A stretch of DNA of 62,847 bases from a virus: the IMG/VR virus record IMGVR_UViG_3300035091_000011, positions 1 through 62,847 of that record. The stretch is one strand, 5' to 3'. This document shows, piece after piece, positions 4,042 through 23,031 of this stretch. The position numbers were made by a program, and so were the translations under genes. Under the pieces are notes generated by a model that ran no database searches, had not been told where the DNA came from, and worked only from the letters and a program-made list of their open reading frames with translations. The stretch's first letter is position 1. Each line of letters begins with the position of its first letter.

Positions 4042-4887
4042 CTAAGTCGAAGGCGACGCTGAATGTGACGGCGACACTGAAGCTGATGGTGACAGCGACG
4101 GGCTGACCGATGCTGATGGCACCGCTGAGCCGGGGTCGAGATAGATGAAGCGGGCGAACTGACCCTCGGCGTCGGATTGCGCGCGCGTGGGATCGGTTAA
4201 GGCTGAGCCGTTGAGCGAGAGTTGGTTGAACTCGTCGCTGATCAGTCCGATTGTTTCCGCTGGATCGAGGCGATTCTTGAAGATATCCACGATCATGCGC
4301 TCGAAGTCTGAACCCACACTCGTCGCGGTGTTCTTGCCATACAGTCTCGTGTAGATCTCCGGAGCCGCAGTCTTGAATACGCCCACCTGCCGAGATGCCG
4401 CATTTACGTAACTCGCGGTGATCGGTCCAGTTACTCCACTAACATCACTGAACTGGAACACGCCTGACGCGTCCCATGTGTACTTACTCGTGGAGACTGC
4501 TACACCGGCAGATTTGAGCGAGAACCCGGAGACGCGTCCCAGTGATTGCACGCCGTAGAGGACATTGGCCTCGGGTGCGCTGGTCATCACGGCTTCGTCT
4601 GTGATGGTGGTTGTGGCAATGGTTGAGCCTTCGCCGTAGGTAGCGAGTTCAAGGTTGGTCTCCTTGAAGTCGTCCACGGTGATCGTGACATTCGCGTTCA
4701 ACTCTGTGGTGATACGCGCATCCGTCGCCCGCAGTCCTGAGTACGACTCCTTATGAGTCAGCACCTCAGTTGAGAGTCCCAGGTTGAACTCCGGCGCATT
4801 ACCAAACCACTTGAAGGGAGCGATTGGATCTCCACTGGCGTTTCGGTTGGCCCAAAAGGCCGGTCCTTGTCCCGAGAAGAGTGACAT
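4042..4887 (-). CDS. Major tail protein with Ser-Pro repeat tail
   Basis: A 281-residue protein preceding the G/GT chaperone genes and following tail-completion genes, so by synteny it is the tail tube protein. Residues 1 to about 255 look like a compact beta-rich domain (many T/V/S alternations, e.g. TTELNANVTITVDDFKETN). Residues about 256-281 switch abruptly to alternating serine, ending HSASPST. The same ending closes two other proteins of this genome. If the tail projects from the tube it would decorate every subunit along the shaft. Tube identity is inferred from position and size. Confidence 0.83.
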   Translation of the reverse strand: MSLFSGQGPAFWANRNASGDPIAPFKWFGNAPEFNLGLSTEVLTHKESYSGLRATDARITTELNANVTITVDDFKETNLELATYGEGSTIATTTITDEAVMTSAPEANVLYGVQSLGRVSGFSLKSAGVAVSTSKYTWDASGVFQFSDVSGVTGPITASYVNAASRQVGVFKTAAPEIYTRLYGKNTATSVGSDFERMIVDIFKNRLDPAETIGLISDEFNQLSLNGSALTDPTRAQSDAEGQFARFIYLDPGSAVPSASVSPSLSPSASVSPSHSASPST

Positions 4888-4892
4888 TTAAA

Positions 4893-5441
4893 CTACCTCC
4901 AGTTGGCTGCGTAATGGTTAAAATTCTGATTAACTGCGATCTGTTGCGCGATTCCCTGATCACGCGCATTCTCATACGCTTCCAGACACTTTGCAATGTC
5001 CTCGCGTGACATGCGGTGCTTGTAGAACAGGTGATCGATCATCCCGGCAAGTTGCTCCACCTTGTCGCACTCACTGGTGATGGCGTAAGAGTGGAGTTTA
5101 GCGTGATCATCATAAGTCTTGAGAATCACTTTACGATCCTGCGTCAGTAGCCGCCCGCCCATTTCCACCCAGCGTTGCGACGATCCGGGACAGCGGGCAG
5201 GCATGCGGAAGTATTCGGCAAAGTAGTGGAATTGTACCGCAACAAACGCGTCCATTGAGCGGTCGAACTTGAACCTGTCCTTCGGATTCCAGTTGAAGTT
5301 TGCCACTGCGGGTTGGACTGCTTCACAAATCGCTCCCCACGCGTCCGAGCAGAGTCCACGCCCTTCGACGTGACAGAAACGATCCTGGTACGCCGCCGGG
5401 CGAAGGGTGCTGCCTATTCGTAATGCTTCTGATGCTTTCAT
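4893..5441 (-). CDS. Unrecognised tail-module protein
   Basis: A 182-residue protein between the tail terminator-like gene and the major tail protein. It contains five cysteines (C23, C31, C39 near the N terminus), aromatic-rich stretches (FVAVQFHYFAEYF) and a C-terminal helix with NHYAANWR. I do not recognise a family. Its start overlaps the preceding stop as ATGA, so it is co-translated with tail genes. Confidence 0.75.
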   Translation of the reverse strand: MKASEALRIGSTLRPAAYQDRFCHVEGRGLCSDAWGAICEAVQPAVANFNWNPKDRFKFDRSMDAFVAVQFHYFAEYFRMPARCPGSSQRWVEMGGRLLTQDRKVILKTYDDHAKLHSYAITSECDKVEQLAGMIDHLFYKHRMSREDIAKCLEAYENARDQGIAQQIAVNQNFNHYAANWR

Positions 5442-6001
5442 CCAAGTCCTTCAATCAGTCTCACTGTTAACAATCCAAATCCCACATGCACCACTGTCGT
5501 TCCGAAGTTGTCCGGTTCCATCACCGGCATCTGCAACTCATCATGCCCCTCCACCCACTCACCAACTCCGGGAACTGCGAACCCAAGCTTGGGATTGTCA
5601 TTGATCGTCGTGCGAATCAGCTCCACGTTCGTCGAGAAAATGTTCTCACTGGAGTCGCCGAACTGGTAGAAGTAGGTCAGGCGGAATCGACGAGTGATGA
5701 TATTGCGCCCGCGTGGCTGCGTGATCAGCCGCGTGAAGTCTTCCTTCGCTGGAAGTTTCGCCTGAGAGAACGACTCCTCGCTGATCATCAGGCAGTTCAC
5801 GCGCTGCACTGTTCCACCACTGGAGAGGGTTGCAATATCGAGAGGCGATCTCAGTATCGCAACCTCAGTCCCTTCCTCTGACTTGAACGCCAATGCTAAG
5901 TAGTCAAAGATCTTCGTCTTCTTCGTATTGCTCGTGCCAATTACAGGTGTCAGCAGGGTCTTGAGCTGCGTCTTGATCTGGTTTGCTGTCGGTGCTGACA
6001 C
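5438..6001 (-). CDS. Tail terminator-like protein
   Basis: A 187-residue protein placed after the gp10-like tail completion gene and before the tail tube, where the terminator (lambda gpU-type) usually lies. It starts with a helix (NQIKTQLKTLLTP) and has alternating strands such as RRFRLTYFYQF and TTVVHVGFGLLTVRLIEG, consistent with the small alpha/beta terminator fold. Assignment is mainly positional. Confidence 0.6.
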   Translation of the reverse strand: MSAPTANQIKTQLKTLLTPVIGTSNTKKTKIFDYLALAFKSEEGTEVAILRSPLDIATLSSGGTVQRVNCLMISEESFSQAKLPAKEDFTRLITQPRGRNIITRRFRLTYFYQFGDSSENIFSTNVELIRTTINDNPKLGFAVPGVGEWVEGHDELQMPVMEPDNFGTTVVHVGFGLLTVRLIEGLG

Positions 6002-6002
6002 A

Positions 6003-6443
6003 TTAGTTCGTCGTGAAATTGCGCACTAGTTCGTTAGCTTTCGCAATCACCTTAGGCCTCGCCTGGGCCACTGCGATTCGACTGTAGCGCCGCGCTCGCA
6101 TCCCTGGTTTATCTCCGTAGGTGTAACCGCTCGGAGCGGGTTGCCCACTCACCGCGCCTGCGCGTCCAGTACCGTATTCGCCGAACAGTGGATAGGGAGC
6201 GCCGGACTTGGAGGTTGCGGTAGGGAACAGGCGATAGATACGCGCGTCTCCTTCTGTTACCGTCTCATCCTGCAAAGATCTCAATGTCACGCCCTTGTCG
6301 AACCAACGGAGGCGAATACTCGATTCCTCTTCCTCTCGCAGGATCTTCCCACCACTGCTGACGATGCTATCCCGTAACGACTCCATGCGAGATCTGAAAT
6401 TGTGAAAGATCGGGCCGAGTTCAACTGTGACTAACTCGCTCAA
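6003..6443 (-). CDS. HK97 gp10-like tail completion protein
   Basis: A 146-residue protein. The segment FGEYGTG followed by KPGMRARRYSRIAVAQARPKV matches the HK97 gp10/virion completion pattern (an E-Y-G-T motif, then a P-x-M/R-P-A-like loop and a closing helix). It sits in the neck gene series between head-closure-like and terminator-like genes. Confidence 0.68.
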   Translation of the reverse strand: MSELVTVELGPIFHNFRSRMESLRDSIVSSGGKILREEEESSIRLRWFDKGVTLRSLQDETVTEGDARIYRLFPTATSKSGAPYPLFGEYGTGRAGAVSGQPAPSGYTYGDKPGMRARRYSRIAVAQARPKVIAKANELVRNFTTN

Positions 6444-6802
6444 ATTCTCACCCCTGCGTGAAGTAGCTTGAACTCGTAACTCGGCACTGCACCGACGAAT
6501 GAATCCTTGCCGTGGAAGGTGAACACATCATCTCCAATTTGCACTGCGGTCATTTGTTTCAGCTTAGGCAATCGACATCCTTCCAGGTCTTCCACCACGA
6601 GTCGCTTGAAGCGCTTCCCCGCACTCACGTCTAAATACTCGCGCTTGTCGAGATACCAGTGGGAGTCGTAGGATGCGATTGGCGCCCCCCAGTTGTTCCG
6701 GTCCCCGCTCAGCAACTTGATGCACTGTTCCTGTACGAGTAGCTGGCGTAACCTGTCGTGCGCTCGTGCGATCCCTCGTGCTATTCGAGTTGGTCGATCC
6801 AT
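6440..6802 (-). CDS. Head closure or neck-type protein
   Basis: A 120-residue protein starting with an arginine-rich helix and followed by short strands. It overlaps the gp10-like gene by 4 bases. In the usual order (connector, closure, gp10-like, terminator) it occupies the closure slot. No diagnostic motif is visible. Confidence 0.55.
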   Translation of the reverse strand: MDRPTRIARGIARAHDRLRQLLVQEQCIKLLSGDRNNWGAPIASYDSHWYLDKREYLDVSAGKRFKRLVVEDLEGCRLPKLKQMTAVQIGDDVFTFHGKDSFVGAVPSYEFKLLHAGVRI

Positions 6803-6844
6803 TCATCTCACCTTCAGGACTAAACGTGGAATTGTCCTAAATCA

Positions 6845-7177
6845 TCACCACACCCACAACACCGGAACTGAAGTCGATCTAAACCACCCACCATCGCCTT
6901 CTCGAAACTCGGGCAATCCCAATAGGGGTCGCAACCTCTTGCGAATATCCATCAGCGCATCCTGGTCCTTCTCGTTCACTCCTTCACGCCCACCGTTCAC
7001 CAACTCCATCACACTCCCCGGTGCGTACTCGTTCCACGCTGAGACAAGATCCAGTGCTCGGCTCCATTGTGCGTCGTTCAAGTTGTCAATGAGCGCTGAG
7101 ATGAATTCGAAACTCGCCTCACCTGCGACTTCCCTGACGAAGTCGATATCCTCATCGCTTGGAGTCGGCAGCGGCAT
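6845..7177 (-). CDS. Small acidic protein in connector position
   Basis: A 110-residue acidic, helical protein with a GAGGTGAGGG Shine-Dalgarno ahead of the ATG. It ends in strands (GWFRSTSVPVLWVW). It lies between the capsid cluster and neck genes and could be the head-tail adaptor, but no motif confirms this. Confidence 0.6.
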   Translation of the reverse strand: MPLPTPSDEDIDFVREVAGEASFEFISALIDNLNDAQWSRALDLVSAWNEYAPGSVMELVNGGREGVNEKDQDALMDIRKRLRPLLGLPEFREGDGGWFRSTSVPVLWVW

Positions 7178-7186
7178 CCCTCACCT

Positions 7187-7582
7187 CTACGTACTCGGAC
7201 TCGCTGAATGACTGGGCGAAGTTGACGCGCTCGGACTGACTGATGGCGACGTGCTGCGACTGGCTGACGAACTAGCTGAACTACTCGGTGATGCGGAATG
7301 ACTCGGCGACGCAGATTGGCTCACGGTGGTTAGCGTAACCGCCTGCCACAGTCCATCTGAATCCACAACAGAGATCCCGCCCGCTGTTCGCATACAGATC
7401 GAACCCTTGCCGTAGTGACTGGCTGAGCCGTTGGTGAACAGGGAGTCAAGGACGAAGTCCGCCTCCGCTCCAATCACCTTGAACTTGCCGTCTGAATCCT
7501 GACCAAGTGCGAATGCGCCGTAGGTGCGTCCACTGTTGGAATAAGTACGCGAGAGGCGATTATTGATCTTCTTGAAGTTCAT
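7187..7582 (-). CDS. Small virion-type protein with Ser-Pro repeat tail
   Basis: A 131-residue protein. Residues 1-86 form a short globular part with many glycines. Residues about 88-131 are alternating serine (SPSHSASPS and similar) ending HSASPST, the same last seven residues as the major tail protein. It lies just after the capsid genes, so it may be a minor capsid decoration or neck protein. Function is otherwise unknown. Confidence 0.75.
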   Translation of the reverse strand: MNFKKINNRLSRTYSNSGRTYGAFALGQDSDGKFKVIGAEADFVLDSLFTNGSASHYGKGSICMRTAGGISVVDSDGLWQAVTLTTVSQSASPSHSASPSSSASSSASRSTSPSVSPSASTSPSHSASPST

Positions 7583-7654
7583 TAAAGATTCTCCCGATCT
7601 CTACAGATCTACGGCTGCTACTTCGCAGCGCTTGAGTCATCTTTCCGAGATAAT

Positions 7655-7879
7655 TTACCGCTTTAACCGATTCGCATCTCGTGTTCCCACTGAAACCGCC
7701 GCATCGGACCACGCCCGACCGGCAGATTCGACAGCTCGCCCAACTGTCTGTCCAACAGAACAACCAACGGACTTGGCCGCAGCCTGGGTGGCGCGTCCAG
7801 CCATCTCACCAACGTGACCAGCGGCGACGTTAGTTGCAACGCCTATAGAGGTTAATCGATCTACGGTTGAGTTCTTCAC
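7655..7879 (-). CDS. Small Ala/Gly-rich protein
   Basis: A 74-residue protein with repeated small residues (GHVGEMAGRATQAAAKSVG), likely amphipathic helix. Its ATG overlaps the stop of the preceding gene as ATGA, which supports translation. No family is recognised. Confidence 0.55.
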   Translation of the reverse strand: MKNSTVDRLTSIGVATNVAAGHVGEMAGRATQAAAKSVGCSVGQTVGRAVESAGRAWSDAAVSVGTRDANRLKR

Positions 7880-8100
7880 TTCGGTTCCTCCTTGGGGGTG
7901 AATTTCCCCTTGGTGGATTTCCAGTTGCCGGTGATGTCGCCGCGCGCGATCATTGCATCAAGTTCCTTTTGAGTAAATGCCGCAGCAAGCTCATCTTCCA
8001 TGCCATCGGAGAGAGTTTTGGACTGCGGTAACTTCTTCCCTTCCATCGCTGGAAGCATGACGCGAATACCATGAACGATTTTTCTATTGTCCTTCGCCAC
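7876..8100 (-). CDS. Small basic/acidic protein after the capsid gene
   Basis: A 74-residue protein 11 bases after the major capsid stop. It has an F-T-Q-K-E-L-D-A-M-I-A-R-G-D-I segment suggestive of a short helix-turn and a Lys/Glu-rich C terminus. Proteins of this kind are common beside phage capsid genes; the function is not known. Confidence 0.65.
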   Translation of the reverse strand: MAKDNRKIVHGIRVMLPAMEGKKLPQSKTLSDGMEDELAAAFTQKELDAMIARGDITGNWKSTKGKFTPKEEPK

Positions 8101-8111
8101 TTCAGTCTCCT

Positions 8112-9161
8112 TTAGGTCGCGAGAGTGTTTTCGACCCGAAGCTTCTGCTCATTCGGGATCGTAAAGGGATTGACCTGCACTTCCACGGTGAGATCCCGTC
8201 CCATCACCGACTCTTCGTAGTACACCGTCTGACCGCGCGTGTCGATGCCGGGATTCCCGGAGGCGCGGGCAATTTCCATTGCTCTCACCACTGGAGCAAA
8301 CACTGTACGTCCTACTCCGCCACCGGAAGGCACCGCAGCGATATACCCAGCAGGCCAAACATTAGTGGAAGTGGTCGAGATGCCGCCGTCATTGAACACG
8401 TCGAGCGTATCGTCGAATAGGAAGAAATTGAACGGGATGCCGAGTTCGTCGCTGACCAGCTCCGCCAATCGCCCACGCGGGACGATCGTGCCGAGTGCGG
8501 TATTAGGTGCGTCGGCATGAATTGCGCGATGGAGCGCAGTGCGCAACACTACTCCTGCCACGGGGCCGATCTTGTCCTGTGCGTCTTCGAGGAAGGAGAT
8601 CAATAAATCCCACGCATTGACACTATTGTCGTCCCATGCCGTACCAGCGGTAGTGAGACGATCCGAGGCAAAGTCGTAGCTGACTGTGTGGGTGGTGCCG
8701 GTTTGCGGGTTCTTAGCTACGTTCGTCCCCGTGGCCCAGGCAGTGAACGCATCCACTTCAATACGCCGATCATTCGCCTGGACGATCTGTGCCACTTTCC
8801 CCGGAATGCTTCGTCCGAGGATTTGGTTGATTACTTCGGAGTTCGCGTTCGCGCGCTCACTGAGCTTCTGAATCTCGTACTCGTCCCATTTGTAATAACC
8901 CTCGACTGGAATCATCGAGAGTTCGCGTAACGGAGGAGTAATGTCGGGAATCAGCCGTCCGCGAGAGTTCCATTCGCGTCTATCTGACACGGGTCGGAAA
9001 TCAATCGTGGTGACTTCTTTTAAGTCGATTGAATCCACGTCCTGACGCGGAAAGAAGATCGGCCAACGCAACCGTCCGGTGTTATTGCGGGAGATCGTTT
9101 GCGCGACTACGGTTAGAGACGCAGGCGATAACTCCTCAACCAGTGGAATAAGTGATCTCAT
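8112..9161 (-). CDS. Major capsid protein (lambda gpE-like)
   Basis: A 349-residue protein in the order scaffold, decoration, capsid, which is diagnostic for the lambda-gpE capsid family. It has the early IPEGYYKW-like strand, a long helical part, and the closing VEVQVNPFTIPNEQKLRVENTLAT typical of the C-terminal strand of this family. It would form the HK97-fold head shell. The start has a strong AGGAGG-type SD. No Ser-Pro tail is present on this protein. Confidence 0.87.
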   Translation of the reverse strand: MRSLIPLVEELSPASLTVVAQTISRNNTGRLRWPIFFPRQDVDSIDLKEVTTIDFRPVSDRREWNSRGRLIPDITPPLRELSMIPVEGYYKWDEYEIQKLSERANANSEVINQILGRSIPGKVAQIVQANDRRIEVDAFTAWATGTNVAKNPQTGTTHTVSYDFASDRLTTAGTAWDDNSVNAWDLLISFLEDAQDKIGPVAGVVLRTALHRAIHADAPNTALGTIVPRGRLAELVSDELGIPFNFFLFDDTLDVFNDGGISTTSTNVWPAGYIAAVPSGGGVGRTVFAPVVRAMEIARASGNPGIDTRGQTVYYEESVMGRDLTVEVQVNPFTIPNEQKLRVENTLAT

Positions 9162-9171
9162 TTATCGCCTC

Positions 9172-9588
9172 CTAAGTGAGCGTCAGGTTGATTTTGCAGC
9201 CGACCGCAGCTCCGAAAGCCGTCAGCTCATTCGCGGTCAACGCGCGTCCGAGATTGTCCTCGATCACGTCTCGGTTCACCGTGCCCATCGTGCCCATGCC
9301 GAGTGGATAGGTTTTGGTGTCGTTGCCGAGAGAGGTGTTCGTTGGCGGGACAGTGGCAAGGTGAAGGTTCTGCGGCTCGGGATTGACGGCGTAGATTACA
9401 CCGCTGCCGTCCGCGAGTGTGCCGTCCTGCTTGAACGGAACACCGGGTTTGAGCCAGCCGTCCGCATCAACCTCGTCTGTGGTAAGCTCACTTACATCCA
9501 CGAGTATCTGTTCCATTGCGAGAATCTCGCCGAGGAACACGGGAGCGTAAGTAGTCGTCCCGGTGGTCTTCTTAACATGCATTGGCAT
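9172..9588 (-). CDS. Head decoration protein (gpD-like)
   Basis: A 138-residue Thr/Val-rich beta protein between scaffold and capsid genes, the usual place of gpD-like decoration proteins that bind the expanded capsid. It ends in ANELTAFGAAVGCKINLTLT. Call by position, size and composition. Confidence 0.65.
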   Translation of the reverse strand: MPMHVKKTTGTTTYAPVFLGEILAMEQILVDVSELTTDEVDADGWLKPGVPFKQDGTLADGSGVIYAVNPEPQNLHLATVPPTNTSLGNDTKTYPLGMGTMGTVNRDVIEDNLGRALTANELTAFGAAVGCKINLTLT

Positions 9589-9600
9589 GGATTCGATCTC

Positions 9601-10341
9601 CTATGCTGACTGTCTTTCATTAAACGCCTTAAACGGATCGGCGATAGGCTGAGATTGCTCGACGTAATTCTTGGCGTAATCCTTGGCCCATGCGAACGGA
9701 TCGCCGGGAGCTGGCGTGGTGGACATCTGCCCACCGGGAACTTCAACTTGCTTGTTTGCAACCTTCAGCGATGGCAGGAATGGAGTGATATCAGGCGAAC
9801 TCTCAATAAACTCCTTCGCAGGCTTCTCGGTGACGACGCCCTTGTCGTCCTTGAGCTGCACGAACCACTCGACGGTTTTGCCATCCTTCGCCGGTTTGGA
9901 GACAAACTCAGGCAAGTTAGGAAGGCGAATAAACGCCTCCTCGTTGAAGCCGAGTGCTTTCGATGCTTGGCGCAAGGAGTCGTCGCGTTTGCGTTTGTCG
10001 AGATCCGCCTTCAGTGTGCCGTGCTCGGTCAATTTGGCAGTAACTTCGTCCACTGTTCCCAGCGCCTTGTAGCCAGTCAACGCTTCTGCGTCGGCCTTTG
10101 CTACCAGCGCCTGACCGCGCGGAACACCACTAGTCTTACTCGCCTCAAGCGCATCGTCGAGGTCGCTGCGGAGTTTCTTCACCTTGGCTTCTTCGACTTC
10201 TTTCTCTTGCTTGAGGGTCTTACTAAGCACGAGCACCGGATGATCGTCTGACAAATCCGGCACCCACTTCGTTCCTGATTGCTTGTATTCAGCACGCAGC
10301 CCTTCTGGGATGTCGTCCTGTTTGTCGTAGATTTTCAGCAT
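9601..10341 (-). CDS. Scaffolding protein
   Basis: A 246-residue, highly charged protein with a long coiled coil (residues about 40-130, KTLKQEKEVEEAKVKKLRSD) and a flexible Pro/Thr-rich C-terminal part. It precedes decoration and capsid genes. Scaffolds direct procapsid assembly and then leave. A hairpin that looks like an intrinsic terminator lies immediately upstream of its start, so its level may be set by read-through. Confidence 0.78.
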   Translation of the reverse strand: MLKIYDKQDDIPEGLRAEYKQSGTKWVPDLSDDHPVLVLSKTLKQEKEVEEAKVKKLRSDLDDALEASKTSGVPRGQALVAKADAEALTGYKALGTVDEVTAKLTEHGTLKADLDKRKRDDSLRQASKALGFNEEAFIRLPNLPEFVSKPAKDGKTVEWFVQLKDDKGVVTEKPAKEFIESSPDITPFLPSLKVANKQVEVPGGQMSTTPAPGDPFAWAKDYAKNYVEQSQPIADPFKAFNERQSA

Positions 10342-10361
10342 CGTCTTTCTGACTCAGCGGT

Positions 10362-10416
10362 TAAAAATGAAAAGCCCGCTATCGAAGGAGTACGAGACTC
10401 ACTCAATAGCGGGCTT
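10362..10416 (-). terminator. Intrinsic terminator between portal and scaffold genes
   Basis: On the minus strand an 11-bp perfect stem (AAGCCCGCTAT / ATAGCGGGCTT; arms 10406-10416 and 10372-10382) with a 23-base loop is followed by TTTTCATTTTT. It lies before the scaffold start, so it would attenuate transcription into the capsid genes. Confidence 0.72.
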
Positions 10417-10444
10417 ACGAAGGGAAGCATCAATGGGCTGTCAA

Positions 10445-10660
10445 CTAAGGCGGCAGTGGGCGCTCGGAAGCGGAAACTGTCGTCGTCGCGCAGGATAACA
10501 TGGTTTTATCACTGACTGTCAACAAACTTTGCAGGAGATGTAGCGAAATTGTGCAGCGATGGACCTCACCGTGGTGGCGGGACTCGATTACGAGTGCGCC
10601 GTTAACGATACGCGCCGAAGGGAGTTTGCAGTTATCGTTATCGCAGAGAATCGGAGTCAT
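10445..10660 (-). CDS. Small protein coupled to portal gene
   Basis: A 71-residue protein whose ATG shares a base with the portal stop (TAATG). It has C6 and C11 and the strand-forming NGALVIESRHHGEVHRC, with His residues that could complete a metal site. Similar short RHHG-containing proteins occur in phages but I cannot name a function. Confidence 0.62.
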   Translation of the reverse strand: MTPILCDNDNCKLPSARIVNGALVIESRHHGEVHRCTISLHLLQSLLTVSDKTMLSCATTTVSASERPLPP

Positions 10661-12619: not shown

Positions 12620-12623
12620 TTGC

Positions 12624-13016
12624 TCACACCGAGGGAGACGTACTGGACGACGGACTCAAACTTGCACTAGCCACATCAACCACGCCATACAGATTAAGCA
12701 ACTTGTACCTGTACTGCGCCGTCGCTGGCGTTGGGCCATTCTCGGACTCGTACACATACTGCACTGTCACCGTGCGGATCTCGAACTTGCTCCGGGACTT
12801 GACGATGAAGTTTTGATCCGAGGTGATCCATAAGTCAACTGAAGTGGAGAGCGAGGGGAAGTTAGTGACTCCTAGAATCGCGGTCTTGCTCGCTTCGTCG
12901 TCGATGCGGTAAGTGGCTGAAGTGGGAGTGACAGGTAACGCGTTCTCATCGAAGAAGGAGACGGCGATAGGGAATGCGCTGCGCTCTGAGATTTCGATGA
13001 GACATTCGTTAGCCAT
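12624..13016 (-). CDS. Small beta-rich virion-type protein with Ser-Pro tail
   Basis: A 130-residue protein. It opens ANECLIEISERSAFPIAVSFFD, then VTPTSATYRIDD, a pattern of short Ig-like beta domains found in phage structural gene clusters. Residues about 117-130 are alternating serine (ASLSPSSSTSPSV). It is one of six proteins here that carry this tract. Confidence 0.7.
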   Translation of the reverse strand: MANECLIEISERSAFPIAVSFFDENALPVTPTSATYRIDDEASKTAILGVTNFPSLSTSVDLWITSDQNFIVKSRSKFEIRTVTVQYVYESENGPTPATAQYRYKLLNLYGVVDVASASLSPSSSTSPSV

Positions 13017-13242
13017 TGGAATACGTCGCAGTTAACCCGTCCGAACCCGCAGCGATCAATTCCTGACGCGGAGCAGCCCAACCATACTGAGCCACTGTGC
13101 CATCGTCACGAGAGCGCCATTTTAGCGTTACGCCCGTTTCATCCCGCTCGGTAAAGCATTCAATATCAGTGTACTGAATTACCTCGTAGCAATATCGTAT
13201 TCGGTTTATTATTAGACTCCCTTCGCCAACTCCTCCAACCAC
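13009..13242 (-). CDS. Small hypothetical protein, start uncertain
   Basis: The frame is open upstream to 13302, but that would overlap the glycosyltransferase by 91 bases. A GTG at 13242 would give 77 residues and a 31-base overlap. Content (RYCYEVIQYTDIECF, then TVAQYGWAAPRQELIAAGS) looks like a small beta domain. It overlaps the next gene by 8 bases. Confidence 0.5.
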   Translation of the reverse strand: MVGGVGEGSLIINRIRYCYEVIQYTDIECFTERDETGVTLKWRSRDDGTVAQYGWAAPRQELIAAGSDGLTATYSNG

Positions 13243-15008
13243 TCTCTCACTCGCCCGTAGATTAGCGGCCAGCCAGCAATCTGTCCATCTGTTTCTTCCC
13301 ACCCCTCCGCGAACTTCTTGTTCCTGAAGCTCTCAACGGAGAAGTGCGGCGTCGTCAACGTCTGCCCATGTCCAGTGATGTCGATATTAGGGAATTCCGA
13401 TTGCCAGTTGGAGACCTTTTCATCTCCGAACTTCCCACGCGTACCGGGTTCATAGGCCATGCGCTTCACGTCGAACACTCCACCATTCGCCTCGATCAAC
13501 TCCACGCGTTTGCGGTAGTGGTCCAGCAAGAGTTGACGGTTGGCGCAAATCCCACTCACTTGCTGGAGATTCGCCGTGCGAACCGCGTGACCGTCGGAAT
13601 AGCGCACTCGCCAGACGTTAGTATTGTAAAAGAAGGTATCGTCTCTCGGTGGAGTGAACTGGAAATGCGACGGGTGGTAAAACATGTCACTCTCACATAG
13701 GAACACGTAATCCGCCGTCGATCTCTCCAGCCCAGCGAGAACCTGATAGTGCATCGTACCGCCTGATTTCTCTCTATCGAGCACCACTGTCCAGTCGCCG
13801 AAGTCGGTTCGCTGGAGGGTTACGCAGCCTATCTCATGTCCGTTGGTTGCGTGCTTGAGATTGTTGCGGGCGGCGAGTTCGAGAGTTGGATCGTGGGAGT
13901 TGCAACTGTAGTACAGTGCGCAAGCCGTTGGTTTGCGTTGAATAGCCGGAGCGTAAGGAATCGACTTCCCCTGACGACGATAGAATTCGTCACCGGCTTG
14001 CTTCACCTGCTGGTAGACGGGGTTGTTATCGGTCCAATCGGGAACAGGTGCGAACTTCTCGATTAACCAGCTAAGAGGATAGACCTGCCTGGGCCAGAGG
14101 TTCTTTAACCAAAGTTCCTTACCGCGAGCCTTGGCCCGCTCCTTCCTGCCACCGTCAGCATATGGAAATCCAATGCCTCCAACCCTGAAGAAATGAGCGA
14201 ACCACGTATTCTGGTTAACCTTCAGTTCACCTCCTGATAAATGCGACTTGCAGGCGATCTCCGTTCCCATATCGCCCCATGAACCAAAAGATTCTTCACA
14301 AGGTTCAATCTCCCAATACCTGTCTCGCCTCATGGCCCAGCATGCTCCCAGCAGGCTCATAGTGTCATGTATAGGCTGTTGAGTCTCGGGACGAAACGGA
14401 ACATTATTCCGCTTACAGTATTTTTCATCGGAGGCATACGCGCCGTGATACTGGAAGTCCAAGTTAGTATCGAACCTCCACGAGTGCGTATAAGCCCGTC
14501 TCCTCCCCTCCTGTCCATCACGCGGCTTCCAGATCTTGACCTGTTTAAGATAACGTGAACCACATTGCTCGCACTTGGGAGGCTTGGGAGACTGGTCCTT
14601 GGTCCATGAGCAGCGTTTACAGCGCCATTCGAATACTTGCAAGTTATACTGTCCAGCCACAACCGTCCACTTCGGTTCGAATGTCGCCAGTAGTTTCTCG
14701 TCGAAGTTGGAATCTAAGCTACAATGTGCATCGAGCTTCATCACGTACTCACCAGTTGCAACTCGCGCTGCTTCATTGGTTGCAGCTCTCTGACCTATCG
14801 ACTTGCGATGCTGAATGACCGTGAGGCGGGAGTTGATGGGGAGTGGAGTGAGTGGCCACTGGGTGTCGTAGCCGTCGAGGACTGCGATCACTTCGGTCTT
14901 AGCTGAAGTATTAGCGAGGACATTGGTAATCGTCTCATGCAGGAGATCGATGTCGTAGTAGAATTCGTTCCTTGCGGGCACGAGCACTGAGAGGTGGTAA
15001 CGGCTCAT
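13212..15008 (-). CDS. GT2-type glycosyltransferase, two domains, with inserted zinc ribbon
   Basis: A 598-residue protein. The N-terminal GT-A fold starts LSVLVPARNE; VLDGYD (44-49) would bind the nucleotide sugar, and D93-A-H95 in KLDAHCS is a metal-binding D-x-H. A zinc ribbon is inserted at C130/C133/C146/C149. E239..GSWGDMGTEIA followed by SGG and W..HFFR resembles the acceptor region of GT2 enzymes such as polypeptide GalNAc-transferases. From about residue 360 a second domain has FLCESDMFYHP, a possible second GT-like site. It probably transfers sugar to a phage protein; the Ser-rich tracts in this genome are the obvious candidate acceptors. The acceptor is inference. Confidence 0.78.
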   Translation of the reverse strand: MSRYHLSVLVPARNEFYYDIDLLHETITNVLANTSAKTEVIAVLDGYDTQWPLTPLPINSRLTVIQHRKSIGQRAATNEAARVATGEYVMKLDAHCSLDSNFDEKLLATFEPKWTVVAGQYNLQVFEWRCKRCSWTKDQSPKPPKCEQCGSRYLKQVKIWKPRDGQEGRRRAYTHSWRFDTNLDFQYHGAYASDEKYCKRNNVPFRPETQQPIHDTMSLLGACWAMRRDRYWEIEPCEESFGSWGDMGTEIACKSHLSGGELKVNQNTWFAHFFRVGGIGFPYADGGRKERAKARGKELWLKNLWPRQVYPLSWLIEKFAPVPDWTDNNPVYQQVKQAGDEFYRRQGKSIPYAPAIQRKPTACALYYSCNSHDPTLELAARNNLKHATNGHEIGCVTLQRTDFGDWTVVLDREKSGGTMHYQVLAGLERSTADYVFLCESDMFYHPSHFQFTPPRDDTFFYNTNVWRVRYSDGHAVRTANLQQVSGICANRQLLLDHYRKRVELIEANGGVFDVKRMAYEPGTRGKFGDEKVSNWQSEFPNIDITGHGQTLTTPHFSVESFRNKKFAEGWEETDGQIAGWPLIYGRVREWLEELAKGV

Positions 15009-15756: not shown

Positions 15757-15762
15757 TGTGAA

Positions 15763-16097: not shown

Positions 16098-16315
16098 TAC
16101 CAACTCACTCTCGTGTCAGGAATTAAAACATCTGAAAGATAGACATTGAATCCGCGCCTTCTTAATTCCGAGATAACCGCATCGCTAGGCCATCCATCAA
16201 AGCGAATAAACCTCCAGTTACGAGTCGCGGCCCTTTCTACCAAGGCTAGTACGTCTTCGACAGTCTTAGTGTTACGTTCAAATAGTCGCAGTGCATCGTC
16301 TGCTGATTCAATCAT
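16097..16315 (-). CDS. Small hypothetical protein
   Basis: Start chosen at ATG 16315, which overlaps the upstream stop as ATGA; an in-frame start at 16327 is possible. About 72 residues: helix (ADDALRLFERNTKTVEDVLALVERA) then alternating beta/alpha (WRFIRFDGWPSDAVISELRRRGFNVYLSDV), resembling a small nucleotide-type alpha/beta fold. No family recognised. Confidence 0.6.
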   Translation of the reverse strand: MIESADDALRLFERNTKTVEDVLALVERAATRNWRFIRFDGWPSDAVISELRRRGFNVYLSDVLIPDTRVSW

Positions 16316-18453
16316 GGCTTCACCCACATGAAATCTGTTGATTTACGTCCTTCGAAGATGTACCAGATCGGAATCCGATGCGCGTTCGTATACGCCTGCA
16401 CAGCTTCAACTACTCCACCACCAATCCAGCGCTTCTGGTCCAGTGCGTAATAGTCGTCGCCGGAGACGATGCCACCTGAGCGCACTCGCTTGGACCATTC
16501 GATGAGATCCTGTATGACGAAGTCGAAAAGATGATTGCCGTCGATATAACAGAAGTCCAACGAGTCCTCCTTTACATCACGTACAGCATTCATTGAGTAA
16601 TCAACGATCATCCGCGCAGCGTAACTGTTCGAGGTTTGAGTCCTGCGATAAGCTTCATTGTACGCAAACTCATGCTTCTCCTTCGACTTCCCCTGTGGGT
16701 TATCGCTGTAGTGATGCCACGGATCAACCAGCAGTAACTCGCATTCAGGGTTCGCCTTCAGTAAAACTTCACTGTACTTTCCTTCCGCCACCCCAATCTC
16801 CGCCCCGCGCTTGAATCCGAGTTCAGCGAACAGTGCAGCCAGATCGTTACGGTGAAAGTCGCGCAACTCGATTGGCATTGGCCCACGGAGACGTTGAGGA
16901 GAGATGGAGAATTTGCGAATGAGGTAGTCGTTGAGGGCGGTAGCGGACATCGGCTGTCGCTGCAATTTTTCAGCCTCGGCAGTAATCTTTTCGTAATCAC
17001 GCACCGCTCCGCACTTACACTGCGGTACTGACTGACCTTCCACCGCCTGAAAGTCATGGACGTGATCGCTATCAACGCTGTCGTGAACCTCGTAGTGAAT
17101 TTCAGGAGACTCAATAACATCGCGCATACCTACTTCTACTACCCCTTGCGGCCATCGTTGGTTAGCTTTATCCTTCCACGTCGCAGGAACGTCTCGTCGT
17201 GCCTGCCCGATAATGAGCCACTCCTTTTCAATTCGCTCTATCGTTATTTCATCGCCGCCGTAGGAGTAAGTCAACAGCAGTACTTTCTTCTTCCCTCGGA
17301 ACGGATTCTGATCAGAGCAGAGCATTGAGTTATTCACGACGATGTCTAGCGAGTCGTTCTTAACCAACGAACGTACTCTTTCGACAACGTCGATGGAGTG
17401 CTCGCTGAAGGGCGGCATGCTGCCGAGAATGCCGTAGCGGGCGGAGAGGATACGCAGCCCGGAATCTTGGCCGTCTGTCTCCGTAACCACCGCTGCTCCT
17501 GTTGCCATTCCGTTATCTCGCACCACCGTCTCCACTCCTGATCCAACTGCTCTTGGCTTACGTTCGGCATACAACACCTCCTCCCAATTCTCCGGCCAGC
17601 TCGGCACCGGCCAGAAGTGCTCGATGAGCCATTTGAACGGCAATGTCTGCTTATTCCACGCTTCGTTCCAGATCCACTTCATCGTCTGATTGCGACCTTG
17701 TACCAGTGCAGATTCAGCGAGACGATAGCCACGCCCGTACTTAGATCCTTTGTGAAGGTGAAGGTATTTACACTTCTTGTTAACTTTCACCTGACCGCCG
17801 CTGAGCCAGCACTTGAGGCCGAGTTCCTGAAACTCGCACCAGAAGGGGCCGTAGCTCGCCTCGTCCATCAGTTCCAGTCGCTGAAAGTAGCTCACGTGCA
17901 TGAACCAGCCGGAACCTTGTGATGACATCTCATCGTCAACGAGAACGTTGTTTCGCTCCAGCGCACGCTCAGGCCAGATCTTTCCATTCAGCCCCGGCCC
18001 ACCGAAGTCGTTGGGGTCGTCGGGGAAGGAGAGATAGTGGTAGTCGATGTAGAGTTTATGCGTGTCAGTGGGGCACCAGTTTTCAGGATCGAGTCGTCCC
18101 CGTCGCGGGACTACAATCCAGTCCTCATCACAGTCAGCCTTGAGTACCTCGTCGAATCCTTCACTGAACGAGCAATGACCATCGAACTTAGCGATGAACT
18201 TCGCCCCACGGGAGATCGCGCTGGCTACACCTTTGTTGATCGAACCGCGCATTCCAATCGACTGTCCATTGTGAATCGTATGCAACCTCGGATGACGCGC
18301 GGTGACTTCCTTCCAGTTTCCCGGCCACTTATCGGAATCGAGCACGGCGATAACTTCAGTCTCCTCGTCGCGCGCGTTGCGGAAGATGTCGTCGATGGTC
18401 GGGGTTAGGAAGCGCTCGTCACGCGAGGGGATGATGATTGAGAGTTTAGACAC
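16312..18453 (-). CDS. GT2 glycosyltransferase fused to a class I methyltransferase
   Basis: A 713-residue protein starting at GTG. Residues 1-250: GT-A fold with LSIIIPSRDE, VLDSD (38-41 region), D91-G-H93 and the acceptor region YGPFWCEFQELGLKCWLSGGQVKVNKKCKYLHLHKG. Residues about 330-450: a central alpha/beta domain I cannot name. Residues about 463-485 hold H-x-H plus C-x-C that may bind metal. Residues about 548-713: SAM-dependent methyltransferase (AEIGVAEGKYSEVLL, LLVDPW, DFCYIDGNHLFD, GGIVSGDDY), of the Methyltransf_24 type. It would add a sugar and then methylate it or another group. It overlaps both neighbours. Confidence 0.82.
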   Translation of the reverse strand: MSKLSIIIPSRDERFLTPTIDDIFRNARDEETEVIAVLDSDKWPGNWKEVTARHPRLHTIHNGQSIGMRGSINKGVASAISRGAKFIAKFDGHCSFSEGFDEVLKADCDEDWIVVPRRGRLDPENWCPTDTHKLYIDYHYLSFPDDPNDFGGPGLNGKIWPERALERNNVLVDDEMSSQGSGWFMHVSYFQRLELMDEASYGPFWCEFQELGLKCWLSGGQVKVNKKCKYLHLHKGSKYGRGYRLAESALVQGRNQTMKWIWNEAWNKQTLPFKWLIEHFWPVPSWPENWEEVLYAERKPRAVGSGVETVVRDNGMATGAAVVTETDGQDSGLRILSARYGILGSMPPFSEHSIDVVERVRSLVKNDSLDIVVNNSMLCSDQNPFRGKKKVLLLTYSYGGDEITIERIEKEWLIIGQARRDVPATWKDKANQRWPQGVVEVGMRDVIESPEIHYEVHDSVDSDHVHDFQAVEGQSVPQCKCGAVRDYEKITAEAEKLQRQPMSATALNDYLIRKFSISPQRLRGPMPIELRDFHRNDLAALFAELGFKRGAEIGVAEGKYSEVLLKANPECELLLVDPWHHYSDNPQGKSKEKHEFAYNEAYRRTQTSNSYAARMIVDYSMNAVRDVKEDSLDFCYIDGNHLFDFVIQDLIEWSKRVRSGGIVSGDDYYALDQKRWIGGGVVEAVQAYTNAHRIPIWYIFEGRKSTDFMWVKP

Positions 18454-18634
18454 CTGCTCGCGCCCTCCGTTGCCTCAAGTTCTCAAATACCGCTAAACAC
18501 TCAGGGCAGTCTACGTCTTTAACTTCTTCTTCAGCGTAGTCACCTGGCGCGTCTAGAGCACAGTCGAATAAGTGCCAGTGATGCAAGGCTCTGTCTCCGA
18601 GATCGCTAAGAGTGTTGTTAATATCTTCGCTCAC
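18446..18634 (-). CDS. Small CPEC-containing protein
   Basis: GTG at 18634 overlaps the stop of the RHH gene as GTGA, giving 62 residues (the frame is open further upstream but that would run over the RHH gene). Sequence has HHWHLFDCALD and VDCPECLAVF, possibly a His/Cys metal site. Function unknown. Confidence 0.6.
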   Translation of the reverse strand: MSEDINNTLSDLGDRALHHWHLFDCALDAPGDYAEEEVKDVDCPECLAVFENLRQRRARAGV

Positions 18635-18777
18635 TTCTTCTCCTTTGCGAGCTTCTCCTCCACTGCAATGACAATCTCCGCTGATACTGAGCGACGATTG
18701 CGATCTGCCAGTTTCTTCAACCGGGTCAGCACCTTGACAGGGAAGTAGATATGCGTGTCCTTGACTTGACCTTTCAT
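18631..18777 (-). CDS. Ribbon-helix-helix (Arc/MetJ-type) regulator
   Basis: A 48-residue protein from the ATG at 18777. The strand THIYFPVKV, helix LTRLKKLADRNRRS and helix VSAEIVIAVEEKLAKEKK form the complete RHH fold (x-I-x-F-P, then R-x-S-x-S-A-E-I). It heads the glycosyltransferase block, right after the giant repeat protein gene, and may regulate it. It is too short for common ORF cut-offs. Confidence 0.75.
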   Translation of the reverse strand: MKGQVKDTHIYFPVKVLTRLKKLADRNRRSVSAEIVIAVEEKLAKEKK

Positions 18778-18804
18778 GCGACATGGTTGTACTACAGGTG
18801 GAGA

Positions 18805-21800
18805 TTAGTTGTCAATTGTGAATTTCACCCCTGTCACTCTTGCTACAAATATCACTGAGGGTTGCTTCGGAGTGAACTCTACACTCGATTGACGCACATC
18901 GAAGTAGGCCGCAACTGCGATGGGAATTGGACCACTGGGAGAGGAACTGGTGGAAGGGGATTCGGATGACGAGGGGCTGATTGAGGCGCTGGAAGATTCG
19001 GATGGTGAGAGTGAGAGGGATGGGCTGGCGGAGGGACTGAGACTGGCGGACGGAGAGATGCTAGCCGATTCACTGGAGGACGGACTAATCGAGGGAGACT
19101 CCGATGAACTCGGACTTGGAGAGGCTGATTCGCTACCGCTAGGGGAGACTGACGAAGATGGCGAGGGAGTTGGGGATTCACTCGCGCTCGGACTGAGGGA
19201 GAGCGACTCACTTGCACTCGGGGAAGTTGACGCTGAACCACTGGAACTTGGACTAAGACTGCTACTTGGACTGGTCGTCGCACTCTCACTTGCAGATGGT
19301 GAGACGGATGCACTGGGACTGAGTGAAGGGGAAGTTGAGGTACTTGGACTGAGCGAAGATGAAGGAGAAACACTCGGACTCTCCGAAGCTGACGGCGAGA
19401 CTGAACTGCTGGGGGATAACGAGGGTGAGGTGGAAGAACTGGGGGAAATGGACGAGGACGGAGAGGCCGAGAGTGAGGAGGATGAGGAAGGAGATAGAGA
19501 GGCGCTGGGACTGATACTGGGACTAGTTGACGACGACGGACTTTGACTACTGCTTGGAGAGACGCTCGGACTCGTCGAGGAGCTTGGGGAGACGGATGGA
19601 GAGGGGCTGATAGATGCTGAAGCTGACGAACTGGGAGACTGGGAGGCGCTGGGACTGAGCGAGGGGCTGACACTGGACGATGGCGATACTGAGGGCGAGG
19701 GGGAGATGCTCGGACTGGTGGAACTGGATGGTGAAACGGATGAACTCGGGCTGATGCTCGGGCTAACTGAACTCGACGGGGAAGGGGAGCTTGACGGGCT
19801 GAGCGAGGGGCTTACGCTGCTGCTGGGAGACGCGCTGGATGACGGACTGAGCGACGGAGACGGGCTAACTGAAGGTGAAGCGCTGAATGAAGGGGAAACA
19901 CTTGCCGACGGACTCACACTTGGAGATGCGCTGGCACTTGGGGAGACGCTGGCTGAAGGGGACTGCGATAACGATGCCGAGGACGAAGGACTAAGACTGG
20001 CACTCGGGCTGAGACTTGGTGACGCTGAGCTTGACGGGCTCAGGGAACTGCTCGGGGAGATGGAAGGGGAAGCGCTACTCGATGGTGACGCGGACGAGCT
20101 GGGAGAGATCGATGGAGAGACGCTGGATGAAGGACTCGCACTGCTGCTGGGAGAGAGAGAGGGACTAACACTCGCCGATGGAGATGCTGAGCTTGAAGGG
20201 GAGAGGCTTGGAGATGTCGAACTGCTCGGACTGAGACTGCTGGACGGTGAGAGGGACGGACTCGCACTGCTGGAAGGTGATAACGAACCCGACGGAGAGA
20301 TGCTGGGGGACGCTGAGCTTGAAGGGCTGGTTGAGGCGCTTGGCGACACACTGGGCGATGCACTGCTACTAGGACTGAGCGAGGGGGATGGTGAGATCGA
20401 TGGCGATACTGAACTGCTCGGACTGGGTGATGAACTCGGGGAGACACTTGGCGAGGCACTGCTGCTCGGAGACTGAGACGCGCTCGGGCTGATGCTGGGC
20501 GATTCGCTACTGCTGGGTGAAGTACTCGCACTTGGGGATACACTCGGAGAGATCGAAGTCGAAGGCGAGACACTTGCACTTGGACTCAGACTCGGACTCT
20601 CGCTTGAGCTTGGGGAGGTGCTCGGGCTGGGACTGATGCTGGGTGAGGTGGATGACGAAGGACTGACGGATGGAGAAGGGGACACGCTTGGACTAACAGA
20701 CGAACTCGGGCTGAGCGAGGAACTTGGACTAATACTCGGAGACACGGAAGCTGACGGACTTACACTGGCACTCGGTGAGATCGAAGGCGACACAGATGAC
20801 GACGGTGATCCACTACTGCTCGGACTTACGCTTGGCGAGACAGAACTTGACGGGCTGAGACTGGGACTGGGTGAGACACTAGGGCTGACCGAAGTTGAAG
20901 GAGACAAGCTCGCACTCGGACTCACGCTGGGAGAGGGTGAACTGGAGGGGCTGACGGATGCACTGGGAGACAGGGATGGTGAAGAACTAGATGAAGGAGA
21001 TCCAGCAGTGATACTTCCACCGCCGAAGTCGTCCAGTTGCACGCCATTGTCGCTGAAGGTGCGAACGCCGATGAACCCGCCGCCGGTGTAGGTGGAATCA
21101 GTCCTCGTTGCGATCTCACCCCATGAGCCAGCGCTGGGTTTGTACTGGATCGAGAAAGAGTTCCCCTGAACGGAGACGCCGATGGAGTCGCCTGCTGCCA
21201 TACCCTGAGAGATCGATGCGCCAACTTGCGTGTCGAGCGATCCAGCCACCATCGTCCAGAGTTCAACCACGCTGTCTGAAGTCGCAAACAGGAAGTAACA
21301 ATTCCCGGTGTTGCCGGTTTGCATGCGGAAGGTGATGCCGAAGCGCGTGAAGGGAGCGTTGAGCGTGGCGAGGGTGATGTAAGCTTCCTGATTGGCGGTG
21401 AAGGAGGCAACGGACCAGTAGTCGGCGCGATGGCCGAAGGAAGCGTTGAGCTTATTCGACAGGACATTCATCCCCGTGCCGAGATCGGTCCAATTCGACG
21501 AGGGTGGTGGGCCTTCGTTGGCACGGTTAAAGTTGTCGAGGATTGAGGTGGTAGGGAAGGTTGATGGTGTTGAAGGGGAAGCGCTACTACTGGGCGAGGT
21601 GGATGCTGAGGGTGAGAGGCTCGGAGAAGGGCTGACCGAGGGGGAGGTTGACGAGGAGGGAGAAATCGAACTACTCGGTGAGGGAGAGCGGCTGATACTG
21701 GACGACGGGGAGACGGAGGGCGAAACAGATGCGCTTGGGGATACCGACGCACTTGGACTCGGACTGGAGATCGGAATGGCGAGGATCTCAATTAATCCAG

Positions 21801-23031
21801 TCGCAGTTGGACTCGCAGCCGAGAGTGTGAAGGAGTCGCTGGCGGAACTGCCGAGAGCGTTGTAGGTTTGATCCGCCGTTGAGATGCCTAGCCCATCAGT
21901 ACGTTCATTCCACCCACTCGGAGAGGTGAAAGTAGGGGTGCTGTCTGCGATACAAGTGGACTGGACGAGGGAGCGGTTGGCGATGCGGGATAGCGCGTCC
22001 CAGGTGGAAGTGGTGGAGGACGCATTGAGCCTGACATTCACCGCGCCAATCGGACTGGTCTGCTTGGTGTTGTAGAAGGTGCAGATTTGCGCTGAGAGTT
22101 CCGCTGATCCAGTGCGATTCACCTGACGATTGAGCGTGGCTGAAGCATAAGCCCACCACTTCGAGACGGTTGATCCCCCTCCACTGGTGGTGGTTTGCCA
22201 GGTGCCGATCAGGGTCCACGCGCCGTCGGTCATAGAGAGGGTGGTGGAACCGGAGCCTTCCACGGTAATGACGAGCAGATCCTTGTTGCCGTTGACATCG
22301 GAGTTAGTTGTACCCGTGGGGAGGGAGGGAGTGACGGTCGTGCCAGTGACAGTGGCTTGCGATGCTGAGCGATAGTAGGGGTAGTCAGCGGAAGGGACGG
22401 CGAAGATCCCTGCTACCCAGCGCACACCACTGGTAGGAGAGGCGTCCTGATTGGCGAGGGAGGTGTTTTGATCGGCGACTGTCTTGTTCGCCCCGTTCCC
22501 GACGAGGGTGCCGCTGATGATGATCTCCTCGTCCTGGGTGTAGCCGGAAGGGTCGGGGGCGTTGGTTGCGGCGCGCGAGAAGTAGATATGCAGCGCCAGC
22601 ATCTCCGGGGCGATGGTGGTGATAGTTGAGGGTCGGACAGGATTCGCAGTTCCAGTGGAGACGCTGCGCGCCAACCATGAAGCGAGAGTCATCACCCCTT
22701 CCTCGCTTGCGCCGTCGATGGCGTAAGCGATTGCCATGCGATTGACAGTTGCGCCGAGGGTGAATGCAGGGTTGGCTAAAGGAAGGGAATCGCCTGAGAG
22801 TACGCGTCGATAGAAGTAAGTGCCGAGGAGACCGTTGGCGGAGGTGCCTACCTGGGCTTGCTGGATGCGGCTCCAGCCGGTAGGGTTCCCGGTCCAGAGA
22901 GTGTTGCCGGTGTTGCCGACTGCGATAATGATGATATCACCGGCGGCATGGGTTGGGAGCGTGACAGTGATCGTAGACCCAGTGCCGCCGGGGTTGGTCT
23001 GGGTCGAGTCACGGATGGTTGGAGTAGCCAC
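18805..23031 (-). CDS. Giant Ser-Pro repeat surface protein (1408 aa)
   Basis: Domain order: residues 1 to about 418, Thr/Ser-rich beta domains (GDIIIIAVGNTGNTLWTG and a second similar copy around 230-410); 419-490, first alternating-serine tract; about 493-673, a lectin-like beta sandwich (SILDNFNRANEGPPPSSNWT, then YTGGGFIGVRTFSDNGVQLDDF); about 675-1367, an alternating-serine tract of some 690 residues; last 41 residues a short beta module (AAYFDVRQSSVEFTPKQPSV). The long tract has a 16-residue super-repeat. I infer a long fibre or mucin-like stalk on the virion, placed between terminase-linked structural genes and the glycosyltransferases. Confidence 0.8.
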   Translation of the reverse strand: MATPTIRDSTQTNPGGTGSTITVTLPTHAAGDIIIIAVGNTGNTLWTGNPTGWSRIQQAQVGTSANGLLGTYFYRRVLSGDSLPLANPAFTLGATVNRMAIAYAIDGASEEGVMTLASWLARSVSTGTANPVRPSTITTIAPEMLALHIYFSRAATNAPDPSGYTQDEEIIISGTLVGNGANKTVADQNTSLANQDASPTSGVRWVAGIFAVPSADYPYYRSASQATVTGTTVTPSLPTGTTNSDVNGNKDLLVITVEGSGSTTLSMTDGAWTLIGTWQTTTSGGGSTVSKWWAYASATLNRQVNRTGSAELSAQICTFYNTKQTSPIGAVNVRLNASSTTSTWDALSRIANRSLVQSTCIADSTPTFTSPSGWNERTDGLGISTADQTYNALGSSASDSFTLSAASPTATGLIEILAIPISSPSPSASVSPSASVSPSVSPSSSISRSPSPSSSISPSSSTSPSVSPSPSLSPSASTSPSSSASPSTPSTFPTTSILDNFNRANEGPPPSSNWTDLGTGMNVLSNKLNASFGHRADYWSVASFTANQEAYITLATLNAPFTRFGITFRMQTGNTGNCYFLFATSDSVVELWTMVAGSLDTQVGASISQGMAAGDSIGVSVQGNSFSIQYKPSAGSWGEIATRTDSTYTGGGFIGVRTFSDNGVQLDDFGGGSITAGSPSSSSSPSLSPSASVSPSSSPSPSVSPSASLSPSTSVSPSVSPSPSLSPSSSVSPSVSPSSSGSPSSSVSPSISPSASVSPSASVSPSISPSSSLSPSSSVSPSVSPSPSVSPSSSTSPSISPSPSTSPSSSESPSLSPSASVSPSTSISPSVSPSASTSPSSSESPSISPSASQSPSSSASPSVSPSSSPSPSSSVSPSISPSPSLSPSSSASPSVSPSASTSPSSSASPSISPSGSLSPSSSASPSLSPSSSLSPSSSTSPSLSPSSSASPSASVSPSLSPSSSASPSSSVSPSISPSSSASPSSSASPSISPSSSLSPSSSASPSLSPSASLSPSSSASLSQSPSASVSPSASASPSVSPSASVSPSFSASPSVSPSPSLSPSSSASPSSSVSPSLSPSSSPSPSSSVSPSISPSSSVSPSSSTSPSISPSPSVSPSSSVSPSLSPSASQSPSSSASASISPSPSVSPSSSTSPSVSPSSSQSPSSSTSPSISPSASLSPSSSSSLSASPSSSISPSSSTSPSLSPSSSVSPSASESPSVSPSSSLSPSTSTSPSLSPSASVSPSASESATTSPSSSLSPSSSGSASTSPSASESLSLSPSASESPTPSPSSSVSPSGSESASPSPSSSESPSISPSSSESASISPSASLSPSASPSLSLSPSESSSASISPSSSESPSTSSSPSGPIPIAVAAYFDVRQSSVEFTPKQPSVIFVARVTGVKFTIDN
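18936..21002 (-). repeat. Long alternating-serine coding repeat
   Basis: About 2.07 kb encoding (S-x)n with x mostly P, S, A, V, T, L, I. A frequent unit is 16 residues (48 bases), e.g. SPSSSASPSVSPSAST. All six serine codons are mixed, so DNA copies have diverged while the protein pattern is kept. Parts of the antisense strand are open by composition only. Confidence 0.9.
21562..21775 (-). repeat. Short alternating-serine coding repeat in the giant protein
   Basis: Encodes about 70 residues of the same S-x pattern (residues 419-490 of the 1408-residue protein), linking the N-terminal beta domains to the lectin-like domain. Confidence 0.85.

Follow-up and report, generated by a model that had tools for sequence, protein, structure and literature searches.

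The stretch of DNA analysed here (the window) is a 62,847-nt IMG/VR virus record of a tailed phage whose structural genes form a block on the minus strand. In tracts of six ORFs of the window, Ser occupies every other position, and the genes for two glycosyltransferases (GTs), GT1 (13212-15008) and GT2-MT (16312-18453), are located between tract genes. The features are as follows, with tract regularity given as runs of Ser-x (S-x) pairs.

4042..4887, minus strand: major tail protein (phrog_807, E 3.3e-48, residues 1-249 of 281)
4045..4116, minus strand: C-terminal tract of the major tail protein, 24 residues (258-281), longest S-x run 12 pairs
7190..7321, minus strand: C-terminal tract of ORF 7187-7582, 44 residues (88-131), longest S-x run 22 pairs
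12627..12668, minus strand: C-terminal tract of ORF 12624-13016, 14 residues (117-130), S-x run 7 pairs, near GT1
13212..15008, minus strand: GT1, 598 residues, N-terminal GT-A domain (PF00535, E 2.5e-18) and a second domain (about 360-598)
16312..18453, minus strand: GT2-MT, 713 residues, GT1-like GT-A domain and C-terminal class I methyltransferase (residues 552-668)
18805..23031, minus strand: giant tract carrier, 1408 residues, between the terminase and the GTs
21568..21765, minus strand: first tract of the giant, 66 residues (423-488)
18931..21000, minus strand: main tract region of the giant, about 690 residues (678-1367), containing 287 unbroken S-x pairs
55077..57194, minus strand: tail assembly protein (phrog_1082, E 5e-65) with a laminin-G-like domain (PF13385) and a C-terminal tract
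55080-55229, minus strand: C-terminal tract of the tail assembly protein (residues 656-705), longest S-x run 25 pairs
57194..60064, minus strand: tail protein (phrog_1101, E 3.9e-57) with an internal tract
57899-58210, minus strand: internal tract of this tail protein (residues 619-722), longest S-x run 52 pairs

A preliminary description of this DNA had named the same six ORFs, and we find alternating-Ser tracts in all of them. The span it gave, 4042-23031, holds four of the carriers; ORFs 55077-57194 and 57194-60064 lie outside it. It had also treated all six as virion-type proteins, which PHROG profiles bear out for the three tail proteins; ORF 7187, ORF 12624 and the giant are assigned to the virion by gene position only. 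Four of the six carriers simply end in their tract; that of the major tail protein is an added tail, because the phrog_807 profile ends at residue 249. C-terminal to its tract, ORF 57194-60064 has a weak match to a laminin-G-like domain (PF13385, E 1.4e-4) that does not reach the cut-off of this profile. Two further ORFs lie close by: a 624-residue ORF (53190-55064) that has a signal-like segment at its N-terminus, matches tail-fibre PHROGs over one stretch and carries a Pro/Thr/Ser (PTPTP) tract distinct from the alternating-Ser type, and a small tail-block ORF (60065-60391) that, by reading of its sequence alone, resembles a low-molecular-weight phosphatase (ICENGNNRS).

We compared the longest S-x run of each tract with a null in which residues were shuffled inside that tract. 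The observed runs, in window order, are 12, 22, 7, 287, 25 and 52 pairs, versus shuffle maxima of 10, 12, 7, 16, 12 and 14. Only the 14-residue tract of ORF 12624 is unexceptional on its own, its run equalling the shuffle maximum, and a tract is kept at the same position in tract-bearing relatives. In the major tail protein, the alternating Ser is kept at 84 of 84 positions across seven phages (the window and six relatives), while the codons, with switching between AGY and TCN, and the intervening residues vary. The tracts use all six Ser codons, and a codon cannot pass from AGY to TCN by a single base change. Judged from these sequences, the tracts are maintained at the protein level, with selection on Ser. 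Separately, DNA slippage as the origin of the tracts is ruled out by their mixture of AGY and TCN codons, which in the giant number 162 and 214, respectively.

Both GTs match PF00535 and carry the D-x-H motifs that the preliminary description had noted, DAH in GT1 and DGH in GT2-MT, and the methyltransferase it had placed on one of them is the PF13578 domain (E 9.1e-14) that ends the 713-residue protein. The GT-A domain of GT1 has DAH at residues 93-95, a zinc-ribbon-like C130..C149, WG at 244-245, LSGG at 257-260 and H272-x-FR; PF00535 is present in all 16 members of the GT1 family, and D93, H95 and H272 are invariant over the 16 phages. The PF00535 match of GT2-MT is weaker (E 8.6e-6), and a GT1-family HMM identifies it as a GT1 paralog (E 8e-104), with D91-G-H93, LSGG at 217-220 and H232/H234, residues that are invariant in the family alignment. 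The second domain of GT1 (about 360-598) carries E439-x-D441..YHPSHF and has no Pfam match, including none to a ricin-type lectin domain; its counterparts in other phages are separate genes or occur in swapped order. Among GT1 homologs, the one at L206:1-1706 has its domain order swapped, those at L201:3863-6001 and L008:3670-5961 contain large insertions, and that at L107:4522-6192 has, by eye, a GIY-YIG nuclease-like stretch in place of the second domain.

Structure prediction and a search had been proposed for the GTs. For GT1, the best PDB matches are polypeptide GalNAc-transferases whether a single sequence (E 2e-4), a profile (E 4.6e-15) or the fold (E 1e-14) is used; the best matches of the 16-member profile are polypeptide GalNAc-T1, T10 and T2, and with the GT1 model the top 48 Foldseek matches in the PDB are all polypeptide GalNAc-transferases. 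In the alignment with GalNAc-T1 (1xhb), D93 and H95 fall on its DAH and H272 on the His of its GH-x-FR motif. In GalNAc-transferase structures this His is the third metal-binding residue, a role inferred here for H272. The AlphaFold model of GT1 has a pLDDT of 84.6 and a pTM of 0.58, the relative placement of its two domains being uncertain. The GT2-MT model, built with six sequences, reached a pLDDT of 40 and was not used as evidence.

A capsid protein search gave 11 relative loci. All relatives with tracts have GTs, and the more distant L011, L013 and L014 have no tracts and no PF00535 match over the whole record. Presence and absence of tract and GT nevertheless form a single split on the capsid-protein tree; since this comparison counts as one event, we extended the search beyond that clade. 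IMG/VR was scanned with a tract DNA pattern blind to GTs; a first pattern gave mostly simple SPSPSP repeats and was replaced by one that bars Pro at the x positions. As controls we used 50 tract-scan records with simple repeats only or no tract, which are not a random sample of IMG/VR. The GT1 profile was found in 35 of the 45 tract-found records versus 1 of the 50 controls (Fisher p 8e-16), and in 27 of the 28 tract-found records of at least 30 kb; the sole control match is partial and weak (1.7e-9), in a 264-residue ORF. PF00535 alone occurs in 35/45 tract-found records versus 6/50 controls. In one record, G054, a tract is present and the GT absent, the tract gene being cut by the contig edge.

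The association also holds when the search starts from the enzyme. A relative of GT1 is encoded in 361 IMG/VR stretches, of which 80 were kept; within the DNA examined, 64 of these 80 GT1-family loci have tracts, the nearest being on the same strand as the GT1 homolog in all 64. Distance is only mildly informative (median 748 bp from GT1 to the nearest tract versus 2226 bp for other large ORFs; a tract within 300 bp for 19/64 versus 20%). Many contigs are fragments, and several tract-less GT1 loci are cut near the GT gene; there are also long GT1-positive virus records without a pattern-detected tract (64-kb G113, 112.6-kb G111, 30.8-kb G118 and 27.6-kb G116). G113, G111, G116 and G118, which are the records of L332, L322, L343 and L346, may have other acceptors, and L344 has a Ser/Thr-Pro tract (SPSHSISHTPSKTPSHTPS; L344:10989-11402) immediately after the GT, a variant acceptor-like tract. 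We grouped 124 loci by shared genes after removing families found in at least 12 loci, without which single-linkage on one shared protein merges most loci. Requiring two shared genes gave 60 groups, and requiring one gave 20 (largest 99); because the loci split in this way, the link between GT and tract is not that of one lineage. Modification of the tracts by the GTs, previously guessed from proximity, is thus supported by association in both directions; attachment of a sugar has not been shown. We regard the predicted GT-to-tract link as strongly supported by this association.

A methyltransferase of the same PF13578-type family as that of the window occurs in 100 of the 135 loci examined, and is the usual third partner in the putative cassette. 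Nucleotide-sugar enzymes (UDPG_MGDP_dh, GDP-mannose dehydratase-like) are found in some cassettes, and some include a TOD1/MUCI70 GT-like gene (L239:5817-6464; PF04765, E 3e-7) whose family is found in 18 loci. In 50,697 phage records, in which the presence of Che8 and Corndog, the phages that encode gp110 and gp38, respectively, is unconfirmed, we found no tblastn match for two GT1-family queries, no megablast match for the gene block, and no tblastn match for the capsid protein or the 7187 protein; tblastn of GT2-MT gave matches to its methyltransferase domain only.

GT1-family loci are not confined to phages. Twenty-five come from cellular genomes, for the most part patescibacterial, and in many of these loci a tract ORF neighbours the GT. 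The Patescibacteria represented include Woesebacteria, Levybacteria, Zambryskibacteria, Daviesbacteria, Saccharimonadales and WWE3. A giant tract ORF adjoins the GT in several patescibacterial loci, and the complete chromosome CP066693.1 (L377) has the GT cassette beside a tract protein. One of the cellular-genome loci, L367, resembles phage sequence. In the phylum of L377, the GT is accessory, because only 4 of 287 sampled genomes carry it (E<=1e-30). TatC genes lie downstream of tract ORFs at L377:16907-17641 and L379:19728-20486, which may point to an export link for glycosylated surface proteins.

Our analysis shows that the tracts are present and conserved, that the cassette is present and associated with tracts in unrelated phages as well as on patescibacterial contigs, and that GT1 matches GalNAc-transferases in fold and metal site. 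On this basis we propose with considerable confidence that the phage has a cassette of its own for protein O-glycosylation and uses the tracts as a portable acceptor tag on structural proteins; this glycosylation has itself not been observed. In the host cytoplasm, the GalNAc-transferase-like GT-A domain of GT1 would most likely add the first sugar to tract Ser (or Thr). Extension of the glycan would fall to GT1's second domain and to the paralog GT2-MT, whose methyltransferase domain may cap it by O-methylation. The proteins that bear the tag would be the major tail protein, which is present in many copies, both tail-tip proteins, two small structural-block proteins and the giant carrier. That tract Ser is the acceptor, the order of the steps, the sugar, the methylation of the glycan and the surface coat are all inferred.

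The GTs could instead modify the host cell surface, for superinfection exclusion or receptor change, the tract proteins being merely other variable structural proteins. Phage GTs of the GT1-type fold are often annotated as host-surface modifiers, and some long GT1-positive records lack a tract. The nearest relatives of GT1 are, however, polypeptide-acting GTs, and it is with the tract itself that the GT is associated, in unrelated phages as well as on patescibacterial contigs, so we think a host-surface role improbable. Glycosylation of phage DNA bases, shielding the genome, has a precedent, since GTs that hypermodify DNA are known from viruses (Pyle et al., 2024, cited in PMC12619734). Against this, the early-region ORFs scanned, which were not every ORF, include HNH, exonuclease, replication O-like and sliding-clamp genes and no base-modification enzyme, and the GT cassette also occurs with tract proteins on chromosomal contigs; we find this role barely credible. 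Both host-surface and DNA modification are less likely because the GT travels with the tract itself.

It is also conceivable that the tracts are not acceptors at all, and serve as flexible spacers or lectin-linked arms binding glycans that the cassette makes for another purpose. The laminin-G/ConA-like domains in ORFs 55077-57194 and 57194-60064 would suit such a role, as would the frequent length of tract proteins in other phages. A spacer, however, needs no strict Ser at every second position with a free alternate residue, whereas 84 of 84 Ser are kept, and in the major tail protein, ORF 7187 and ORF 12624 the tract is a bare C-terminal tail; we therefore judge a spacer role quite improbable. 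Against the glycosylation cassette itself we counted the lack of biochemical data, the tract-less long GT1 records, the GT-less G054, the lack of a ricin-type lectin match in GT1, the single split on the capsid tree, the low pLDDT (40) of GT2-MT and the uncertain domain placement in GT1 (pTM 0.58).

We found no published description of such a phage glycosylation system in the open-access literature searched, and the cassette-tract system is untested in any cultured phage. Because the cassette travels with alternating-Ser tails across many unrelated uncultured phages and some ultra-small bacteria, the phage is likely to sugar-coat the proteins of its own particle. We lean slightly towards a broader proposal, in which a GalNAc-transferase-like cassette, made up of a GT, a second GT domain and a methyltransferase, and a Ser-x-Ser tag constitute a widespread, mobile prokaryotic O-glycosylation system common to many unrelated uncultured phages and Patescibacteria. 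Phages would use it to decorate their tails and further structural proteins with methylated glycans, as an independent counterpart of mucin-type glycosylation. If glycosylation by the cassette is real, many uncultured phages carry structural proteins sugar-coated by their own enzymes through a simple, transferable acceptor tag, which would matter for adsorption, for the stability of the particle and for its recognition by hosts. It would also provide a sequence rule to predict glycosylated virion proteins in metagenomes, offer a small GT/acceptor pair for bacterial expression that is related to animal mucin-type transferases, and connect phages, via the cassette common to both, with surface-type proteins of Patescibacteria.

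With the GT27 polypeptide GalNAc-transferases, GT1 shares the GT-A fold, D-x-H with a third His, and the WG..E / GG / H-x-FR features, and the tracts resemble mucin domains as Ser/Pro/Ala/Thr-rich, low-complexity acceptors, a role that is predicted for the window. GT1 differs in being phage-encoded, in having no N-terminal membrane anchor that we could see, and in carrying, instead of a domain with a ricin-type lectin match, a second domain without a Pfam match. We do not claim GT27 membership for GT1, because it has no ricin-type lectin match and its donor is untested. The term "mucin-like", implying GalNAc on Ser/Thr, is the weakest wording of the preliminary description: donor specificity cannot be read from the present data.

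In Gram-positive bacteria, alternating-Ser proteins receive their glycans from dedicated GTs whose genes lie next to those of the acceptors (PMC3794999, PMC6973325). The serine-rich SRR proteins (GtfA/GtfB, accessory Sec) and the staphylococcal SD-repeat (SDR) proteins (SdgA/SdgB) share with the window Ser at every second residue, very long tracts and dedicated GTs adjoining the acceptor. Their acceptors are cell-surface adhesins, whereas the putative acceptors here are phage structural proteins, and the two GTs of the block, unlike GtfA/GtfB or SdgA/SdgB, are PF00535 enzymes with GalNAc-transferase-like features. They matched no other GT class, including a GtfA/GtfB or SdgA/SdgB type, and the part of the window's ORFs that was scanned gave no match to Sec components.

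A precedent to which the preliminary description had appealed is confirmed in the literature: mycobacteriophages use GTs that they encode themselves to glycosylate capsid and tail-tube proteins (PMC12363180, PMC12619734). Virion self-glycosylation is described for Che8, Corndog and Myrna (Freeman et al., 2023, as cited in these two articles). In these phages, as in the window, one genome encodes both the GT and the structural proteins that serve as acceptors, a role that is predicted for the proteins of the window. Their targets include the C-termini of tail-tube (and capsid) subunits, much like the C-terminal tract of the window's major tail protein. Unlike the mycobacteriophages, the phage described here would use an alternating-Ser tag on six proteins, together with a GalNAc-transferase-like two-domain GT and a methyltransferase.
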